Shown here in pieces: positions 44,768-54,472 of a stretch of 64,000 nt of DNA; position 1 is the stretch's first letter; the number at the start of each line of letters is the position of its first letter. A model generated the notes under the pieces. That model saw nothing but the letters and a program-made list of their open reading frames with translations. It made no database searches and was not told the DNA's origin. The DNA is taken from NCBI GenBank assembly GCA_002724245.1, contig PBOG01000014.1, forward strand, positions 1 through 64,000, written 5' to 3'. This stretch comes from Planctomycetaceae bacterium. GTDB lineage: Bacteria > Planctomycetota > Planctomycetia > Pirellulales > Pirellulaceae. The position numbers and the translations under genes are program-made.

Positions 44768-47248
44768 TCAAGGTCGCAGATGTCGGAAACGCTTGCCATC
44801 GAGGCTACGGGTCCCGGCGCTACCCATGCGAAATCGCAATCGCGGTCTGTTAGCAACTCGACCAGTTATAACCAGGCGATGGGTTCCCGGTGCCAGTACG
44901 ACGGGAGCCAGGCCCCAGATCTGACTGGGAGATTCGAGCGCGGGTTGTACTTGATGATTCAAGAACAAGCGGGCCTGGCAATTACTCTGCAGCTGTAATT
45001 GAAAGAGGGATTGCCGCGTCACGTCAAAGTATGCTTCCACGGTAAACCGGGCCCCCTCAGGCAGATTGAGTGAATCGATCCAGTTCGCGTGACGTAGTGG
45101 GTAAGTGACGACGTGTCGTCGCCCTGGATCGACCGTCAACAAGATGCCGGGCTCGGTTCCAGTGGGTGCCGGAGTGGGCGCTGGGATGGCCTGCGGTGGG
45201 CGCACTGTCAATAACAGCGGCGGACTCAATGCCCGCCCGGACTGGTTGTCGTCATACCGGGCGACCGCCCATAGGCGGACGGGCCCGAGCCCCAGTCTCT
45301 GGGCAGCGAGTGTGACCACACCCTCTGCACCGTTGACGGTTTCCAGGCGTTGAAAGTCATGGAACAGAGAGATCGAACGGGCGCCCATTGCCCGCAACTC
45401 GAACTGGAACTGTTCATCAAATCTGACCGACCGCCGATTGCAGCGCAGTTCGACCTGCCGACCACGGGAGCGAACCGTAACCGGGTAGCTGCGGCGACCG
45501 GTGCTGGCAAGTTGATTGTCTGCCGTTGCCACCACTGTCACCTGATGGTATCCGTCAGCGAGGCTTTCTGGATCCAAACGAAACGGTTCTCCCGGGGGAT
45601 GCACGGCGCGACGGTATCCGTCAATGTATAGAGTGAAATCACGAATCGCAGTCTGACCGTTGGTCGTTGGGTTGCTGGCCGGCCACCATTCTTGCTGGTT
45701 TTGCAGTTGCCCATCTGCTGGGAGTCCGTTGAGTTCAAATTGCGGAATTTGCGCCCATGGTCGACAGAGGGGGTCACCGACAATCAACAACTGGTATGGG
45801 TTGGCAACCGATTGATAATAGGCTTCACCCAACGTGCATCCACGCGTGTAATGTACGTGCACAAACGGACTGGGAAATTTGTCTGCGATCGCGTAGGGTT
45901 CGTGTACTGCGCCGCTGGATCCCGCCGCGCCCCAACGGAGGAACTCTGTGAGCGGCGTTTGATGCGCGGCTTCCAGTAGAATGCCTCCGGAGCTGGTGAA
46001 GTGTTCACATATCGCTCCAGCTAGAATGGCACTGCCCGACTGGCGCCACTTGAAGTAGGCGGTTCCCGTACTTAGTCCGATGATGTCCCGTCGGTTTTGC
46101 GGAAGAACGCCTGGCAGGACTTGGCCTCTCGCCTGGTGTGTCTGCAATGCCTCGACCGCGGGTCGGTAGAGGTTTTCACGGACTTTTGATCGCGGGTCCG
46201 AATTGGCCGGAAAATAGACCGTTCCCATTGGAAATGAGCCATCCGCATTACGGCTGCGTTGCAGGTAGTTGACGACTTCTTGAAGCGAGTTGCCGCGACC
46301 GGACGTCGTAGCCAACACAGTGGACAGCAGATACCGGTGTCCCGTGCGTTGGCTGGCTACGCCTGCTTCGTCCCAGTTGTTTGCCGCCCGAAATCCACTC
46401 GAGTCTTGCATTGGCCAGGGATGCTGGGCCATCCGTCGTAACCGGGATTGAAAGCCCTGCACCTTGTGCAGCGGCCGCAACGCATGGTGACTGGCAGCAA
46501 TGCGATTGTCGTACCAGCCAAAGTCGATTGCCTTATCCAGTGATCCTAATGCCAGCTGAAACTGATCCAGTTGTGCCTGACAACCGGCGCGGGTGAAATG
46601 CAACGTCGCATTCTGAGGATGTCGATCGATCAGCTGTACGATTTGAATCAGCGCCCTTTGCCATTGGCGGTGATTGATCAATTCGAGTGCCGATTCCCAT
46701 TGTTTGCGCTCATGGTCTGGTAACGGGCCCTCACCAACCGGTGGAAGCAGCCGGCGAAAATAGCGATTTGGAGAGCCAGTCAAATAACCGACATCGGCTC
46801 GCAGCACCTGTTGATAGAGAAAGGTCAAGCCGTTCACTGAAGCGATCGGTATGAATGCCTCGGGCGGCTTGCGAGCACCCAGGTCATGAGTTGCGTCGAT
46901 GATGTAGGGAAGATCACTGGAATAAACAAGGTAATCGATTTGCGCCAACCGCTGCCGCTGTCGAAGTGTGGCGAGAACCGGTCGCAGAATCTGGCGGCGA
47001 AACTGCGCTACATCGATTCGTTCCAGATCGGGCAAGCCAGTGAGTTGCACGACCTGGCCCGCCGGAATCTGCCGCAGCGAGATGTAGTGGTTCGCAACAC
47101 TGCGCGACATCCAGCTATCACCGTTGACAACCAGCGCCAGGTTCTCTGTGGCCTTTGCACACTGAGCGAAGAGAACGACAGTCAGTATCAAACAACACAA
47201 TCGCGTCCCAGGGCCAGTCGGGAATTGCTGAACGGTGGGAGAGCACAT
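44768..47248 (-). CDS. Secreted TIGR03790-type multidomain protein
   Basis: An 826-residue exported protein. Signal peptide LCCLILTVVLFAQCAKATEN. The TIGR03790 region begins NLALVVNGDSWMSRSVANHY and resumes with LLSTVLATTSGRGNSLQEVV, TVYFPANSDPRSKVR and ILLEAAHQTPLTEFLRWGAA. Between the two halves (about residues 185-290) lies a TPR-like helical insert (LELINHRQWQRALIQIVQLI, LDQFQLALGSLDKAIDFGWY). The C-terminal third has Ig-like beta segments and a final beta domain (FTVEAYFDVTRQSLFQLQLQ) reminiscent of PA14/CBM folds. Function of TIGR03790 is unknown. ATG 47248 is used; TTG 47251 is adjacent. Divergent from the ABC-2 permease gene. Confidence 0.8.
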   Translation of the reverse strand: MCSPTVQQFPTGPGTRLCCLILTVVLFAQCAKATENLALVVNGDSWMSRSVANHYISLRQIPAGQVVQLTGLPDLERIDVAQFRRQILRPVLATLRQRQRLAQIDYLVYSSDLPYIIDATHDLGARKPPEAFIPIASVNGLTFLYQQVLRADVGYLTGSPNRYFRRLLPPVGEGPLPDHERKQWESALELINHRQWQRALIQIVQLIDRHPQNATLHFTRAGCQAQLDQFQLALGSLDKAIDFGWYDNRIAASHHALRPLHKVQGFQSRLRRMAQHPWPMQDSSGFRAANNWDEAGVASQRTGHRYLLSTVLATTSGRGNSLQEVVNYLQRSRNADGSFPMGTVYFPANSDPRSKVRENLYRPAVEALQTHQARGQVLPGVLPQNRRDIIGLSTGTAYFKWRQSGSAILAGAICEHFTSSGGILLEAAHQTPLTEFLRWGAAGSSGAVHEPYAIADKFPSPFVHVHYTRGCTLGEAYYQSVANPYQLLIVGDPLCRPWAQIPQFELNGLPADGQLQNQQEWWPASNPTTNGQTAIRDFTLYIDGYRRAVHPPGEPFRLDPESLADGYHQVTVVATADNQLASTGRRSYPVTVRSRGRQVELRCNRRSVRFDEQFQFELRAMGARSISLFHDFQRLETVNGAEGVVTLAAQRLGLGPVRLWAVARYDDNQSGRALSPPLLLTVRPPQAIPAPTPAPTGTEPGILLTVDPGRRHVVTYPLRHANWIDSLNLPEGARFTVEAYFDVTRQSLFQLQLQSNCQARLFLNHQVQPALESPSQIWGLAPVVLAPGTHRLVITGRVANRPRLRFRMGSAGTRSLDGKRFRHLRP

Positions 47249-47470
47249 CAAACCAATTTCCGCCGAATGAGGATATCGGGAAACGCATTCGTTTCGCCTG
47301 ATGAATCATACCCCAAGGTACCGTGGGCTGTCGTTTTCCGACTGCCGCCATTGCCATCTCGGTGCGCTTTCGCAACCTTCAAAGCCGCGTTTTGCAGAAG
47401 ACGATTGGTGCGGAGCCTGGTGCTGCAGACCGTTTTCCGGTGTATACTTGAAGATCGCATTTCCAGCTCC

Positions 47471-47484: not shown

Positions 47485-49140
47485 TTGAATCCGATCATTC
47501 GCCGAGAATTACTGGCGGCGCTCCGTAGCCAGAAATCTGTGGTCCTGCTGACGCTCGTGGCGATTGTATTTTCGCTCCTGGTCGTTTTTCGTTGGCCCGC
47601 GGGGGATCAAGTCGATCTCTCTGGTGCCTTATCCCAGCAGGTATTTCGCGTGTTTGGCTATGGTCTGTTGACCACGCTCGTACTGATGGCGCCCGCCTTT
47701 CCGGCCACTTCGATTGTCCGCGAACGGACGCAGGGTACTTTGCTGCTGTTGTTGAATTCGCCAATGCCGGTGGCACAGATCTACATCGGCAAGTTTTTCG
47801 GCGTGAGCGGATTTGTGTTGCTGGTACTGGTCACCAGCTTGCCGGGTGCGGCCGCTTGTTTTGCGATGGGGGGAATTTCGCTGACCAGGGGTCTGCTGGC
47901 GCTGTACGGCGTACTGCTGTTGATAGTTCTCGAGTATACGACCCTGGCACTCCTGATCAGTTCTATCGCCAAATCGACTGATACGGCACTCAAGAATACG
48001 TACCTTTTGATCCTCGTCATGGCGGTGGTCAGCCTGGGTCCCCACTACTTTCTGCAAGGACAGGCAGGTACTTTGCCATTGTTGGCGGACTGGCTCCGCA
48101 ATCTTTCACCTGTCCCAGCGGTGATGCAGGTGCTCGGTCAAACCGATGTAGGTGGCCAGGGATTGATTTCCAGTGCCAGCACCCTGTTGCGCTTTGTGAT
48201 ATTGTCATTGGGCGTCTCACTGGGTGCGATAGCCTGGACTGTCAGCCGCTTGAATTATCGGATTTTTGACCGGACGCGCAGTCAGGGCATCATCACCAAT
48301 GAACTGGATTTCGAGCAGCGAGTCGCACGCCGCTTTCTGTTCATTGTCGATCCCAATCGACGTAAAGCCGGAATTCCACCGCTTGTGAATCCTGTGCTGG
48401 TAAAGGAATTTCGTTGCCGGCGTTTTGGTCGAATGAACTGGCTGCTGCGCATCTTTTTCGGTTGTGCAATTCTGTCACTTGGTTTGACCTTTGTGGCAAC
48501 GACTGGAACGATCGCCTGGGACGTAAAAACAATCGGCAGTATCCTGGTAGTTTTACAGTCGGCGTTGATTGTGTTGATCACTCCCAGCCTGGCGTCGGGT
48601 TTGATCAGCGCTGAACGCGAAAGTGGTGGCTGGCAGTTGTTGCAGATGACCCCGCTCGGTGGAGTGCGCATCATCACCGGGAAGTTGATGAGCGTCATCT
48701 GGCCGGTCTTGCTGATTCTTTGCGCTACACTGCCTGGTTATGGCTTCATGTTTACGATCGAGCCAGCGCTGAAAGAACAGATCATCCAGGTGTTGATTTG
48801 CCAGTTACTGACCGCCTTGTTGGCGGTTGCAGTTGGTGCTTCCGTGAGCAGTCTATTTCGTCGAACAGCGGTAGCGACCACGGTCGCGTATGCGGTGCTG
48901 TTGACGATTTGCGCTGGGACAATGCTGGTCTGGGTCGCGCGCGATGCGCCTTTTGGTCAGCGTACCGTGGAAACGGTGTTGCGTGGCAATCCCGTGGCGG
49001 CGGCCCTGGCCGTCAATGAAACGCCTGGTTTTGAGGCCTATTCCCTGATTCCGTACGCGTGGTGGTTTTCCGGGATTCTGTCGGCCGTTTTGTTGGTTTT
49101 GTTCGGCGTGCAGAGCTGGCGATTAGCCCGGCCCCAATAA
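47485..49140 (+). CDS. ABC-2 type transporter permease
   Basis: A 551-residue membrane protein with about 12 hydrophobic segments. It looks like two fused ABC-2 permease halves: half 1 starts NPIIRRELLAALRSQKSVVL and half 2 restarts NPVLVKEFRCRRFGRMNWLL. Each half carries the N-P-(I/V)-x-x-(R/K)-E amphipathic start and later G-K-x-x elements (MPVAQIYIGKFFGVSGFVLL, GGVRIITGKLMSVIWPVLLI). No ATPase gene is adjacent, so the partner must be elsewhere. TTG start supported by AGGGGGAGG. The HEAT-repeat protein gene follows after 14 nt, suggesting one operon. Substrate unknown. Confidence 0.85.
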   Translation: MNPIIRRELLAALRSQKSVVLLTLVAIVFSLLVVFRWPAGDQVDLSGALSQQVFRVFGYGLLTTLVLMAPAFPATSIVRERTQGTLLLLLNSPMPVAQIYIGKFFGVSGFVLLVLVTSLPGAAACFAMGGISLTRGLLALYGVLLLIVLEYTTLALLISSIAKSTDTALKNTYLLILVMAVVSLGPHYFLQGQAGTLPLLADWLRNLSPVPAVMQVLGQTDVGGQGLISSASTLLRFVILSLGVSLGAIAWTVSRLNYRIFDRTRSQGIITNELDFEQRVARRFLFIVDPNRRKAGIPPLVNPVLVKEFRCRRFGRMNWLLRIFFGCAILSLGLTFVATTGTIAWDVKTIGSILVVLQSALIVLITPSLASGLISAERESGGWQLLQMTPLGGVRIITGKLMSVIWPVLLILCATLPGYGFMFTIEPALKEQIIQVLICQLLTALLAVAVGASVSSLFRRTAVATTVAYAVLLTICAGTMLVWVARDAPFGQRTVETVLRGNPVAAALAVNETPGFEAYSLIPYAWWFSGILSAVLLVLFGVQSWRLARPQ

Positions 49141-49154
49141 ACACGAGAGTAGCT

Positions 49155-50990
49155 ATGGGATTTGAATCACTGTCTCCCACGTGCCGTGCCGGCGGTTTTT
49201 ATCGGCTGTTACCGCTGTTGCTGTTTGGCTGGCTCGCGAATTCGTATGTGTCGGCTGACGATCTTGTCAAGCTAGAGACAGTGATGGATGTTGATCCCGA
49301 AGTGGTTTTGACCGAGACCGAGCCGGTGTTTTCGGACAAGTTGTTGCCGCTGTGGGTGGAGGCGTTACAGCAACCCGATACCGATTTGCAGCGGCAGGCG
49401 GCTGAGACCATCACCCGCGCACACGAGAAGGGAATGGCGGGGTTATCGGAGAGTAGTTCGGTTCTGATCAAGACGCTGCAGAAATCCGACGCGCACCCGG
49501 CTCTGCAATTGGCGTGCGCGCGGGCCCTCGTTGCATTGGGGGTCGAAGCAGCCGCCGAACCCTTGTTTGCCGTGACCAAAGAGGGCAGCTTGGATATGGC
49601 CCTGTTGGTTGAACCGGCGCTGGCACGCTGGCGATTTGCACCCATTCGTGCGATTTGGCTGGAAAACATCAAGGATGTGAACTGTCTGCCTCAGCGACTC
49701 AAACTGGCTGCGCAAGGGTTAGGTGTGAGTGGTGATCAGAATGTGGCAGCTGCGATGCGAGAACGGCTGGTTGACGCCGACCAAAAGTATGGAGATAGCG
49801 CGAGTTCCAGACTGGTACTGGCGCGTTCACTGGCGCGGCTGCATACCGAGGGTTTAGAAGGCGATGCGCGTGGGCTTGCTGAGAAGGAGGGCCCGGCTCA
49901 TCTTGTGGACCGTCTGGTGGCCAGTCAGTTGCTGGGCAAGCACGAGAGTCAAAAAACCTCGGAGCTGCTAGGTCAACTGGCGGTGGATCCGCTTCCGGTG
50001 GTCGCCTCTGCAGCCTTGGAACGGTTGATAGAAATCAACCCTGATAAGGCGATCGAACCGGGTTGGGGGGCGTTGGAGAGTCCGGATGCGAAACTACGCA
50101 GGCTGGGGATTCAGAGCATCGGGCACCAGGCTGACAAGTCCGTGGTGGATCGACTCGCAGAAATGATGAACGACAATCACACCGAAGTGCGCACCCAGGC
50201 GCGTACGGTGTTGGTTGATTTGGCCCAGGCTGATGCGGCGTTGGATCCGCTCATTCGCGTCGCGGCAGAAGCCATGCTGGGAACTGATTTTTGGCGCGGC
50301 CAACAGCAAGCGATCTTGTTGCTGGTGGCGCTCGACCATAAGCGAGCCGCGGGGCGGCTCGTACAATTGTTGGATTTCCCGCGACCGGAATCGTACGTGA
50401 CCGCTGCCTGGGCACTTCGCGAACTGCGCGTGCCAACGGCGCTGCCTGCGATGTTCCGCAAAGCGGACCGGGCGGTCCGAGCTGGCGCCACGAGTGGGAT
50501 GGAGCCAGGTGGGCCCGAGGATATGCAGTGCTGCTACCTGTTGGAGGCGTTTGGCCTCATGGGCTACGAGGAGGCGGAAGACCTGTTGTGGCGTTGTGTG
50601 CCCAAGAACTATGACCTGGGTGCGGAAACGCGTGCCGCGGGCATCTGGTCGTTGGGCAAGTTGTCGATGGGCAAGCAGGACGACAAGCTGGCCGCTGCGA
50701 TGGTCGCGCGTCTGACCGATGTGGAAGAGCTCTTTGTCGAGATTGACCGTGTTCGATTCATGGCTGCGATTACCCTTGGTCGTTTGCAGTACGCGGAAGC
50801 GAGCGACGCTACCGGTATCAAGGCTCAAGCGCTAGAAGCCCTGGCCAAGTATTTCAATCGCAACGTGGTGACGCCGCTTGACTTTAGTTGTGGTTGGGCG
50901 ATTGGACAAATCAATGGCAAGCCCATCGCGCGCCTGGCACCGCGCAAGGTGTTCCAGATGGGCTGGTTCCTGGAGCCTCTGGAACCGTAG
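49155..50990 (+). CDS. Secreted HEAT-repeat protein
   Basis: A 611-residue protein with a signal peptide (FYRLLPLLLFGWLANSYVSA) followed by an all-helical HEAT/ARM-type solenoid. Repeats are seen in DTDLQRQAAETITRAHEKGM, HPALQLACARALVALGVEAA, DAKLRRLGIQSIGHQADKSV, HTEVRTQARTVLVDLAQADA and PESYVTAAWALRELRVPTAL. No enzyme motif; a protein-binding scaffold in the periplasm is likely. ATG 49155 begins the signal peptide (GAGAG upstream); an earlier in-frame start overlaps the permease gene. Co-transcription with the permease is probable from the 14-nt spacing. Confidence 0.83.
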   Translation: MGFESLSPTCRAGGFYRLLPLLLFGWLANSYVSADDLVKLETVMDVDPEVVLTETEPVFSDKLLPLWVEALQQPDTDLQRQAAETITRAHEKGMAGLSESSSVLIKTLQKSDAHPALQLACARALVALGVEAAAEPLFAVTKEGSLDMALLVEPALARWRFAPIRAIWLENIKDVNCLPQRLKLAAQGLGVSGDQNVAAAMRERLVDADQKYGDSASSRLVLARSLARLHTEGLEGDARGLAEKEGPAHLVDRLVASQLLGKHESQKTSELLGQLAVDPLPVVASAALERLIEINPDKAIEPGWGALESPDAKLRRLGIQSIGHQADKSVVDRLAEMMNDNHTEVRTQARTVLVDLAQADAALDPLIRVAAEAMLGTDFWRGQQQAILLLVALDHKRAAGRLVQLLDFPRPESYVTAAWALRELRVPTALPAMFRKADRAVRAGATSGMEPGGPEDMQCCYLLEAFGLMGYEEAEDLLWRCVPKNYDLGAETRAAGIWSLGKLSMGKQDDKLAAAMVARLTDVEELFVEIDRVRFMAAITLGRLQYAEASDATGIKAQALEALAKYFNRNVVTPLDFSCGWAIGQINGKPIARLAPRKVFQMGWFLEPLEP

Positions 50991-51073: not shown

Positions 51074-54000
51074 TCATTCAAACACCATCAAGCCAAATCC
51101 CCGTGTCTGGATCTTGATGTCGGCTGGTTGTGTCCAGGATTGAAAACCCGCCTGGGGTACGATGCGCTGAATACCGATCGCCCAGGCGTCCTGGCCTAGT
51201 GGTGCCTGTGGCGTTAATTCGTGAAGCGGAATCGCAATTTCGCAGGTCCATTCGCGTTCCCCATCCCGAGCCGCTACGAACCAGCGCGGATTCCAGGTCA
51301 AATCACCAAAACAGGACTCACGGTTCCAACCGCGGTGGTCGACGGCCAGTCGAAAGTAGGTGGCGAAATCGCGGTCGACGTCAATCAAGAACTCGACCCG
51401 GTCGTGCGCAGAGAGATCGGCATCACGGGGTCGAGCACGCTGATTGGTGGGATTGGTGGAGAACCTGGGTTTTTGCGCACTAATCGCCAGGTACAGGTAT
51501 TCTCGATCCTGTGCCGCCAAGACCACACACGGCCAATCGTGATCATCGTGTCGGGCGCTCGATAATGGGGCAGCCGTCGTGGCATTCCAAATCGGGTCGT
51601 TGAGGATTCCGTCCAGGCGCGGTTTCTGTTGGGCCCGTGAGCAAGTTAGGAGTGCTTTTGGTGGCAGACCTGTGGCATGTTTAAGCCATAGTTCTCCGAG
51701 TCCGCACGCTTGCCAGTGCGGGTCGACACCGGGCTGGGTCAAGGCGTGAAAATAGCGTTCGGCGTCGCGAGACAAACCTTGAACCCGGTAAGCGGCGGCC
51801 AACGGAAACCGCACGGCCGGTTCGGCAAACAATCCGGGATTGGTTCGTTCCAGCAATCGTCCGATAGCAGCCGCACGGCCTGCACGTTCGTGTGGTTTTA
51901 ATCCAATCGCCGCGGTGCCTGCGCTGGTGGTTTGCACGGGCTGGGTCTCCTCGAGTTCGAGGTAACCAGCCGGTCGTACTTCCGATCCTGGCAAGGCGAC
52001 GCTGGTGCCACCTGCTTGTTGAACACGGAATCGAGTTTTGCGTCGCAATCGCCAACCAACTTCACTGCTACTGTAGTAATGGATCAACCAGATGGCAGCC
52101 GCTTCGCTGAGTGGGTGGTTTGGATAACGCTGCAGTAGAAGTTCGTAGACTTCTCCTGCCAGATCCGAGCGATTGGAACGATGGTAACCGGCGGCCAGTT
52201 GGGAAAGAATGTTGCCCGCTGCAGCGCGTGACAGACCACGAGTCAGGTCGTTGGCTTGGCCAATCCAGGCGGCGCCCGTGGTCGGATCGTTGTCGATTCG
52301 ATCAATCATCTGCTGGAGATTACGTCGCCGTTGGGCGGCGCGGGCGAGTTGTTGCAAATCCCCTTGAATGGGGCCCAGTTCCCGCCGGGCCGATCCGCCG
52401 ACTCGCAAGGGAATGCCACTGAAAAATCCTTGACGGCCTAGTTTTCCAGGGAGCTGGTTGACGAGCAGTTGAAAGCCACGCCGTACGGGCGCAGGGTGGT
52501 ATTCCGATTCAATTTGGCCTTGGCCGGCGCTGGCGCATTCCGCAAATGAACACCCTAACCGGGGACCCAGTTGTGACGTATTGAGGTCAAGGGTAGCAGG
52601 TTCGCCTGCGGGGACCGTGCAGTAGACTTTGAGTACTTCCCAGGTTTCCAGCCCCAGTGCCGTCAGTTGGTCTGGATAAAAGAGTGGATCACTGGAGCGT
52701 GAGACAGCTTCCAGAACAAACTGATTGGTCAGATGGGACGCTGGATTCGCGCCAGCAGGACTGGCAGGTTCGGTTACCACAACGGACGGTTTCCATTGTC
52801 GAATCTTTTTCACCAGATGCTCCAGCAGGTAATCTCCGGCCTGCCCATCATTCACGGCGTTCCACCCATCTTGAATTTGTGTCGCCGTCAACTTGAGTTC
52901 TCTTTGGCGCACCGGAAATCGCCAGGTGAAATCGGCACCGGATGCACCCACCGCAACGATTCCACGATGCGCCCGTTCGTCCCATGAACACTCGTTTGGC
53001 GCTGCTCCCTCGATGGGCATTCGATGCAGTAACTCCACCACACCCAGATATCCTTCATCTCCGGACAGGGAAGCAAACAGTTCCCAGCAGATCTGATTTG
53101 GTTCCCCAAATAGTCCTAGCAGCGCGGCGCGATCGCCACCGCTGGCCTGACGTTGCCAGGTTTTTCCACCATCGCGTGTAGCCAGAATGGTGCCCAGCGA
53201 ACCGACGGCCCAGCCGCGATATTCATCATGAAACGTGATGGCACGCAGGGGGAGCGCCTGACCGGTCGGATAAATATCCCAGTGTTCACCACCATCTTGA
53301 GAATGTAGGACGCGGGTTCCTGGCGAGCCGGCGATCCAGACGTGCTCGCCAAAGGTAGCCATTGCGCGAAAATCGAGTTGACGGGCAATGCCAGCAGGCA
53401 AGTCTTCTCCCAGGGAATTCCAATGTTCTCCAGCGTCTTCGGTTCGTAGAATCAAACCGCCATCACCGATGAGCCAGCCTCGGCGGGTATCACTGAAGTC
53501 GAGGCGACGCAGATGACGAGGGCCCACGCTGGCTGTTCGTAACGGCTCGCTGCGCGCAGCCATAATCTTTGCTAATGCCCCGTCGTGCCCGGCCACGATG
53601 CCCCTGTCGTGCCAGCCGAAGTGCCCCGTCAGCCAGCCCCCACTTCGTGGACCGGCGACCGCGGACCAGCTACGTCCGCCATCTTGTGTACGAAAAATCC
53701 CGGATGGAAACATCGCTGAAGCGTTGCCGATCACCCATCCTGTTTTGGCGTCAGAAAAATAGACTTGTTTGAGTGCAGGGAGTAACAAGCCGCTGATCGT
53801 GGACCAGCGCTTGCCACCGTCCCGGGTACGAAGAATGACAGCTGTACTTTTGTGGGTATAGGGATGCGAATGGCCACCGACAATCCAGCCGTTGCGGCTA
53901 TCGATGAAGTGAATGGACTCCAAACGACAACTGACTGGTGAACGGGTCCATTGCCAGCTTTGACCACCGTCCACCGTCATCCAGATGACACCCCGATCAC

Positions 54001-54160
54001 CTACGGCAAATCCCTGTTCGGGATCAAGGAAAAACACATCTGTCAGTTCAGCGTCTGGTAGCAACTCTGGGCTGGCGACGGGCGGGTTTGCTCTGGTATT
54101 GAGGGTGAGCAGACAGGCCAGCGTGGTGGCTGCGAAGCAAACCCGGGAGTACTGGTTCAA
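51074..54160 (-). CDS. Secreted YCF48-type propeller protein with C-terminal CBM9-like domain
   Basis: A 1028-residue exported mosaic. Signal peptide VCFAATTLACLLTLNTRA. Residues about 35-340: YCF48/BNR-type propeller repeats with the pattern F-x-D-x-x-x-G-W/F-x-V-G-x-x-G and DGG-x-x-W (FFLDPEQGFAVGDRG, TVDGGQSWQW, TRDGGKTWQRQ). About 350-480: a segment (LFASLSGDEGYLGVVELLHR, LVKKIRQWKPSVVVTEP) that resembles PIG-L/LmbE deacetylases but lacks the HPDDE zinc motif. About 620-690: TPR-like helices (LAGEVYELLLQRYPNHPLSE). About 840-1028: CBM9-like sandwich (KPRLDGILNDPIWNATTAAP, DRVEFLIDVDRDFATYFRLA). Role unknown; it probably binds surface carbohydrate or protein. Confidence 0.82.
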   Translation of the reverse strand: MNQYSRVCFAATTLACLLTLNTRANPPVASPELLPDAELTDVFFLDPEQGFAVGDRGVIWMTVDGGQSWQWTRSPVSCRLESIHFIDSRNGWIVGGHSHPYTHKSTAVILRTRDGGKRWSTISGLLLPALKQVYFSDAKTGWVIGNASAMFPSGIFRTQDGGRSWSAVAGPRSGGWLTGHFGWHDRGIVAGHDGALAKIMAARSEPLRTASVGPRHLRRLDFSDTRRGWLIGDGGLILRTEDAGEHWNSLGEDLPAGIARQLDFRAMATFGEHVWIAGSPGTRVLHSQDGGEHWDIYPTGQALPLRAITFHDEYRGWAVGSLGTILATRDGGKTWQRQASGGDRAALLGLFGEPNQICWELFASLSGDEGYLGVVELLHRMPIEGAAPNECSWDERAHRGIVAVGASGADFTWRFPVRQRELKLTATQIQDGWNAVNDGQAGDYLLEHLVKKIRQWKPSVVVTEPASPAGANPASHLTNQFVLEAVSRSSDPLFYPDQLTALGLETWEVLKVYCTVPAGEPATLDLNTSQLGPRLGCSFAECASAGQGQIESEYHPAPVRRGFQLLVNQLPGKLGRQGFFSGIPLRVGGSARRELGPIQGDLQQLARAAQRRRNLQQMIDRIDNDPTTGAAWIGQANDLTRGLSRAAAGNILSQLAAGYHRSNRSDLAGEVYELLLQRYPNHPLSEAAAIWLIHYYSSSEVGWRLRRKTRFRVQQAGGTSVALPGSEVRPAGYLELEETQPVQTTSAGTAAIGLKPHERAGRAAAIGRLLERTNPGLFAEPAVRFPLAAAYRVQGLSRDAERYFHALTQPGVDPHWQACGLGELWLKHATGLPPKALLTCSRAQQKPRLDGILNDPIWNATTAAPLSSARHDDHDWPCVVLAAQDREYLYLAISAQKPRFSTNPTNQRARPRDADLSAHDRVEFLIDVDRDFATYFRLAVDHRGWNRESCFGDLTWNPRWFVAARDGEREWTCEIAIPLHELTPQAPLGQDAWAIGIQRIVPQAGFQSWTQPADIKIQTRGFGLMVFE

Positions 54161-54350
54161 CGGACTCTCCTTGTCGACCGGTTCTTTTTTGAGGGCGGCG
54201 GATTCTATCGGAAGCCTGCCGACGGTCCTAGATCAGCGGCAGGCCAACCGACCGCCCGGTGCGGCCGGACGGGCAAATAAAGCCCGAAAGAGCTGAAAAA
54301 AAGCGTCTTGGCGTGACCAGAGGTGTCCAGCGGGACGCGATGATGGGGGT

Positions 54351-54372
54351 AACAAGTTGAACTTGTTTCAAC
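54351..54372 (+). promoter_or_regulatory. Operator-like overlapping palindromes at the recA promoter
   Basis: AACAAGTTGAACTTGTT (54351-54367) is a perfect 8+1+8 inverted repeat. GTTGAA-CTTGT-TTCAAC (54356-54372) is a second, overlapping perfect 6+5+6 repeat. They cover the -35 hexamer. ACTTGTT recurs at 54396-54402, near the expected transcription start. The position suits an SOS-type repressor site (LexA or equivalent), but the motif is not the E. coli or Bacillus box. Confidence 0.55.
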
Positions 54373-54391
54373 GACCCCAGAGCGATATAGT
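54363..54391 (+). promoter_or_regulatory. Sigma-70-type promoter of recA
   Basis: TTGTTT (54363-54368), a 17-nt spacer, then TATAGT (54386-54391). Predicted start near 54398, giving a leader of about 75 nt. The -35 lies inside the palindromic region. Confidence 0.55.
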
Positions 54392-54472
54392 ATTCACTTG
54401 TTCACTATGGCTGGGAAATGGGGAATCGGTCGCTTGTCTCAGCGGAACTGGTTTTGATAAAGGAGTGAATCG

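Follow-up and report, generated by a model that had tools for sequence, protein, structure and literature searches.

A planctomycete protein family that joins a Ycf48-type propeller to an LmbE/PIG-L-like domain apparently lacking its metal site

What might a single planctomycete protein do that joins a propeller best known from photosystem assembly to a deacetylase-like middle and a carbohydrate-binding type of fold? The question is raised by a gene at positions 51074-54160 of contig PBOG01000014.1 (assembly GCA_002724245.1, Planctomycetaceae bacterium), the first 64,000 nucleotides of which, hereafter the window, were analysed. An earlier note, made from the letters alone, had read this gene as a secreted protein of 1028 residues with an unusual order of domains. 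Here we describe evidence that its middle domain is a homologue of the LmbE/PIG-L deacetylases whose metal site is missing from the whole of the family examined, and that the architecture is kept across the class to which the window belongs. We think it fairly probable that this pseudo-deacetylase forms the core of a lineage-specific protein, probably exported, which acts as a scaffold or binder and not as a catalyst. Its parts, which run from a signal-like start through a propeller, an LmbE/PIG-L-like domain and TPR-like helices to a CBM9-fold domain, are as follows.

51074-54160, minus strand: whole open reading frame, 1028 residues, with a TTG start and the stop codon at 51074-51076
54086-54160, minus strand: probable signal peptide, residues 1-25, recognised by eye from the hydrophobic run VCFAATTLACLLTL followed by NTRA
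53141-54082, minus strand: Ycf48-type beta propeller, residues 27-340 (Pfam PSII_BNR and a profile match to 5oj5)
52361-53140, minus strand: predicted LmbE/PIG-L-fold pseudo-deacetylase domain, residues 341-600 (AlphaFold, VIA-align and hhalign)
53090-53104, minus strand: former place of the HPDDE motif, residues 353-357, now EPNQI (hhalign and merged alignment)
52733-52750, minus strand: former place of GHGHHQ with the last metal His, residues 471-476, now ANPASH (merged alignment)
51671-52333, minus strand: TPR-like helices, residues 610-830, interrupted by a variable linker at about 711-755 (TPR_14 and the helical model)
51077-51655, minus strand: CBM9-fold domain, residues 836-1028 (CBM9_1 in family members and fold matches)

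Taken alone, the sequence of the window protein gives a weak hint of the middle domain (NCBIfam Mca, E 0.0082, residues 444-515), and Pfam PIG-L is not listed for it at E<=1, so that the curated cut-off is unmet; across the family, PIG-L is matched at E<=0.1 in 7 of 69 members, at best with 2.4e-4. Profile comparisons using hhalign gave a probability of 91.9 (E 6.9e-7) between the family and 27 LmbE proteins of relatives, selected by motif presence from 30 loci with three left out, and a second run gave 91.0; against a set of large PIG-L proteins (18 rows, of which L168 is by eye a wrong frame) the probability was 99.6 over 241 columns (E 6.2e-24). The reversed control stood at 0.1 in each of the three comparisons. 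In line with these results, a profile search of the PDB with the middle domain retrieved LnmX (E 3.6e-8). The AlphaFold model of residues 337-620 (predicted local distance difference test score, pLDDT, 89.1; predicted template modelling score, pTM, 0.90) was also compared with solved structures, and the top 22 rows from VIA-align, GalB included, were all LmbE/PIG-L-fold proteins at Z 14.7-19.9, with the next row at Z 8.1. The best of these were 5bmo (Z 19.9, root-mean-square deviation 2.9 over 194 residues) and 2ixd (Z 19.9, 2.6 over 191 residues). Foldseek likewise ranked the LmbE/PIG-L family first (E 8.0e-8), with modest TM-scores of about 0.45-0.63 in rows down to E 1.6e-5. By profile comparison and predicted fold, the middle domain is thus a true LmbE homologue, as the earlier note had suspected. 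A glycosyltransferase reading of this region, prompted by Pfam EryCIII-like_N (E 0.0086 for the whole protein and 0.0014 for the segment, both below cut-off), was rejected because glycosyltransferases reached a VIA-align Z of about 7, as compared with 14.7-19.9 for LmbE-fold proteins.

The large PIG-L proteins used in the comparison come mostly from planctomycete genomes outside the window's class. They have in common with the window family both the LmbE fold and a C-terminal extension (AADPxRFPxQ, GLxPWxxxK, xFxxGI), and it is this shared extension that makes them the likely source of the middle domain. The one such protein scanned, L055 (a minus-strand frame of 930 residues in which HPDDE, HGHH and NEW3 are all present), differs from the window protein in carrying NPCBM_assoc/NEW3 and in giving no propeller, TPR or CBM9 match. 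Its genome, G308, is one of the 6 relatives, out of 60, in which the window protein had no match; this is a single case.

Has the middle domain kept its chemistry? LmbE enzymes bind their metal through an HXDD motif and a further His (PMC4101496). The solved LmbE/PIG-L structures LnmX, BC1534, BshB and MshB resemble the middle domain in fold (Z 19.0-19.9); the window family is without this site. To count the ligands we used a merged alignment of large PIG-L proteins, 17 in number after L168 had been taken out, and 110 family members, the latter being all of the 119 distinct frames that span the region. The first His is retained in 3 of the 110 members, the first Asp in 14, the metal Asp in 32 and the last His in none, and the Glu of HPDDE is likewise absent from all. 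Neither HPDD nor NPDD occurs in any member, and in none do two of the three metal ligands occur together, so the HXDD plus H test fails throughout. The missing HPDDE had been pointed out before; in the window protein EPNQI stands in its place. At residue 357, 91 of the 110 members have Val, Ile or Leu, and this position ranks at the 81st percentile of conservation within the domain, residues 353-356 lying at the 30th-37th.

For the large PIG-L proteins the comparison has to be read with care, since the 17 merged rows had been pre-selected by HPDD or NPDD and their 17/17 for those letters is by construction. The last His and the Glu lie outside the wording of that selection, and the last His is present in 17 of 17. 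In an unfiltered recount the place was covered by L055 and by proteins from 18 of the 30 loci, which makes 19 distinct ones once a duplicate gene is excluded; HPDDE was found in 17 and RPGDE in two, L183 and L185. These two, from planctomycete genomes outside the class, are also without the HGHH stretch (RGAAEA and ADGRHR). Within the LmbE/PIG-L superfamily they are another, independent instance of damage to the metal site. Loss of the site is thus general in the window family and exceptional among its large PIG-L relatives, rather than unique.

It is nevertheless conceivable that the LmbE-fold domain continues to catalyse, through a relocated metal site or by metal-free chemistry. The fold is predicted to be retained, members of the LmbE fold can adopt other reactions (GalB, found among the close fold matches, is a hydratase), the metal Asp position is still Asp in the 32 members counted above and D491 is conserved. 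We regard this reading as distinctly improbable, however, given that no member combines two of the three ligands, that conservation in the first catalytic loop is on the low side for this domain, and that a His stands no more than three columns away from the lost last His in just 22 of 110 members and from the lost first His in 10 of 110.

The propeller called by the earlier note is clear: Pfam PSII_BNR matches the window protein with 106.2 bits (E 2.5e-30; cut-off 27, passed), and a profile of 19 homologues matches the solved Ycf48 chain 5oj5 over profile positions 29-336 (E 3.8e-29), a likeness shared with Ycf48/HCF136. Unlike those proteins, however, the window propeller is fused to three further parts and falls far below the cut-off of the NCBIfam Ycf48 equivalog PRK13684 (118.5 bits against 326). 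In Ycf48, binding to photosystem II involves an Arg patch of R180, R196, R215, R219, R220 and R237 (PMC10403576). When the patch columns were paired by eye through a HMMER alignment to 8am5, most members retained Arg at one position only, R219 (82/108), with much lower counts at R180 (21/107), R196 (13/109, or 38/109 with the column shifted to the one before), R215 (2/105), R220 (16/108) and R237 (1/109); at the R237 position 100 of 109 members carry an acidic residue, Asp or Glu. Judging by this alignment, the six-residue patch is mostly missing from the family. On both the cut-off and the Arg-patch tests the propeller is Ycf48-type but not Ycf48, and the idea that it points to a photosystem falls away.

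The C-terminal half begins with the helices, which the earlier note had assigned to TPR and which are TPR-like: TPR_14 reaches E<=0.1 in 43 of 69 members, while the window protein itself scores 19.3 bits, below the cut-off of 23.5. Residues 610-1028 were modelled with a pLDDT of 90.2, apart from a poorly predicted linker (block pLDDT 45-65), and the fold matches of the helical region reach Z 9.0 with no single clear match. The CBM9-like fold of the C-terminus is better defined. CBM9_1 is found at E<=0.1 in 52 of 69 members (best 7.7e-12) but is unlisted for the window protein itself, and residues 836-1028 match 7nwn (Z 20.4), 1i82 (20.0), 4jpq (20.0) and 7nwo (19.9). After these come two haem-binding enzyme subunits at Z 13.9 and 12.5. 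A CBM9 sequence profile match to 1i82 (E 6.1e-6) agrees with the fold.

Whether this domain binds sugar in the manner of other CBM9 modules is another matter. These modules hold their ligand in an aromatic clamp formed by Trp71 and Trp175 in TmCBM9-2 and by Tyr89 and Trp191 in CBM9.3 (PMC8280721). We looked for the clamp by sequence alignment only, in 40 of the 69 members. The Trp71 position, placed with low confidence at residue 917, was aromatic in 0 of 40, with 6 of 40 aromatic at 919 and none in the rest of 914-921; the Trp175 position fell within an insertion, and columns 1010-1021 were aromatic in at most 2 of 40. Nine residues are instead invariant in 40 of 40 (R910, D913, D920, D927, D941, G944, W956, P958 and W960). 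The family thus resembles the xylanase CBM9 modules (1i82, 7nwn and 7nwo) in fold, at Z about 20, and differs from them in seemingly lacking the conserved aromatic clamp and in having its own invariant set of Asp, Arg and Trp. Of the carbohydrate-binding sandwich that the earlier note proposed, then, the fold stands, and binding through the two clamp positions does not find support in the aligned members. With an LmbE-like fold in the middle and a CBM9-like fold at the end, the two outcomes that would have overturned the earlier note did not arise. These findings also bear on the proposal that the protein binds glycans in the way usual for CBM9 proteins, serving polysaccharide uptake or breakdown. 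The CBM9 fold and profile match would fit such a role, and W956 and W960 could form another sugar site elsewhere on the domain; however, the clamp positions known from studied CBM9 modules are non-aromatic by alignment and the protein's Pfam list holds no glycoside hydrolase catalytic domain, and we consider this proposal very doubtful.

We then asked how widely the architecture is distributed. In a sample of the phylum, 20 of 294 genomes matched at E<=1e-20, all 20 from the window's class, to which, by our count, 21 of the sampled genomes belong; none of the other 273 genomes matched at this threshold. In a sample of the class, 148 of 198 genomes matched at E<=1e-10 (144 of 177 genomes of good quality), and 13 of the 20 non-matching genomes listed, out of 50, came from one family. 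At most two candidates per genome were scored in the phylum sample and at most four in the class sample, both samples include the window's own genome, and some matches are partial or fragmented (that of G274 covers the propeller only, residues 30-363). Among relatives, 54 of 60 genomes matched. The frames collected number 119 distinct ones, of which 107 exceed 900 residues without X. Coverage beyond the phylum comes from a scan of genome contigs alone, which gave 103 relatives, 80 of them kept; these are titled as planctomycetes, except for two titled only 'bacterium', and include Blastopirellula marina, Bythopirellula, Gimesia, Schlesneria, a Fimbriiglobus metagenome-assembled genome (MAG) and Lacipirellula. 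Throughout the class, then, the parts follow a single order; the architecture is not a one-off, and the order that had been called unusual is standard in this lineage.

Mean conservation, computed over 83 sequences, is 0.454 for CBM9, 0.435 for the propeller, 0.383 for TPR, 0.381 for the LmbE core and 0.314 for the LmbE extension. Between the window protein and L056, the ratio of non-synonymous to synonymous substitution (dN/dS, omega) is 0.056 in the LmbE-like domain, 0.068 in the propeller, 0.055 in TPR and 0.084 in CBM9, so that purifying selection acts on all parts with similar strength in this single usable pair. Since the parts occur in the same order across many genomes, they are not together by chance, and a decaying or chance fusion was ruled out by the distribution and the low omega.

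These data bear on the chief alternative, in which the propeller and the dead deacetylase domain are a mere spacer presenting the TPR-CBM9 unit, with all binding at the C-terminus. CBM9 leads the other parts in mean conservation, and five short relatives with frames of 395-573 residues (L127, L130, L131, L133 and L134) consist of the TPR-CBM9 half only; in the genome of L127, the sole short-relative genome searched, there is no other match at E<=0.001. Lacipirellula limnantheis shows the TPR-CBM9 half only, at E<=0.001. On the other hand, the propeller is nearly as conserved and omega is roughly equal across the parts, and we regard a mere spacer as possible but clearly the less likely view.

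We therefore return to the non-catalytic scaffold or binding protein. In such a protein the propeller and the helices would hold partner proteins, the dead deacetylase domain would act as a rigid linker or bind without hydrolysis, and the conserved Asp, Arg and Trp residues of the CBM9-fold domain would carry the main binding function, possibly towards a glycan or another component of the envelope. Several observations weigh against this reading or narrow it. The RPGDE of L183 and L185 makes the loss in the window family less special, leaving the family's own loss unaffected; D491 is conserved and lies in the extension common to the window family and the large PIG-L proteins, and a pseudoenzyme may still catalyse through other residues. 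The Z of up to 9.0 for the helical region is in the range that the tool deems common for helical repeats. The margin by which CBM9 exceeds the propeller in conservation is small (0.454 against 0.435). The dN/dS values come from one usable pair, L136 being the same sequence and the L057/L137 pair being saturated in dS. Finally, the neighbouring genes name no pathway, and the commonest neighbour adjoins 17 of 80 loci.

The note had described the protein without its strand; it is one open frame on the minus strand, and the plus strand of 51074-54160 has 26 stops in translation. Upstream of the TTG the open frame contains no ATG, GTG or TTG, and a candidate ribosome-binding sequence precedes the start.

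54167-54172, minus strand: AAGGAG, Shine-Dalgarno-like, from sequence, with the TTG start 6 bases downstream

Export is probable, judging from the signal-like N-terminus as read by eye. None of the Pfam or NCBIfam models listed covers the whole length of the protein, and the window's own genome contains a single match to it. The closest records are L056 (91% identity) and L057 (79%), both from Planctomycetaceae MAGs.

Neighbouring genes were tallied over 79 loci and the window, L125 being excluded for its short frame, and the counts are a lower bound because the flanks are short at many loci. The commonest neighbour, at those 17 loci, is a downstream RNase HII-like gene that is not in the window. 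In this cluster (for example L082:9948-10967, plus strand) only the first 22 model positions match, and DEAGYGPNLGPL is found near the N-terminus. In the window, a RecA frame and a PurE-like frame were recognised by eye and HtrA-like and sulfatase genes by match, and no functional link between these neighbours and the 1028-residue protein was found. The start of the gene is separated from that of the divergent RecA frame (RecA by eye) by 312 bases, 54161-54472. Three further genes lie on the other side: a TIGR03790 family protein (44768-47251, minus strand; 100.6 bits against a cut-off of 67) with a weak TPR match at residues 188-248; an ABC permease (47485-49140, plus strand) with a GldF match below cut-off (41.9 against 288.5 bits); and a HEAT-repeat protein (49059-50990, plus strand) whose longest frame overlaps the end of the permease gene on the same strand.

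Each of the domain types is known. In the literature searched we met no account of their combination, of its class-wide spread or of so consistent a loss of the metal site. That search, made largely without subscription papers, returned no study of this protein, its architecture, its spread or such a loss, no paper on Ycf48 in planctomycetes or on Ycf48 propellers in non-photosynthetic organisms, and, for pseudoenzymes of the LmbE/GlcNAc-PI de-N-acetylase type, no paper on a comparable repurposed domain without its metal site.

What can be said is that a protein of about 1000 residues is present in most sampled genomes of a bacterial class. More tentatively, and with rather little confidence, it might be a class-wide component of the Planctomycetes envelope, in which the dead PIG-L pocket, the propeller and the modified CBM9 would together read an envelope glycan and assemble proteins. 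We would likewise put forward only as a speculative suggestion that this glycan is N-acetylated or of another kind, and that the protein helps to build or assemble the planctomycete envelope, itself an unusual one. An LmbE/PIG-L domain without its metal site and yet under purifying selection clearly exemplifies an enzyme fold given another use, and, if the protein is truly an envelope component, it would offer a handle on the planctomycete cell envelope.

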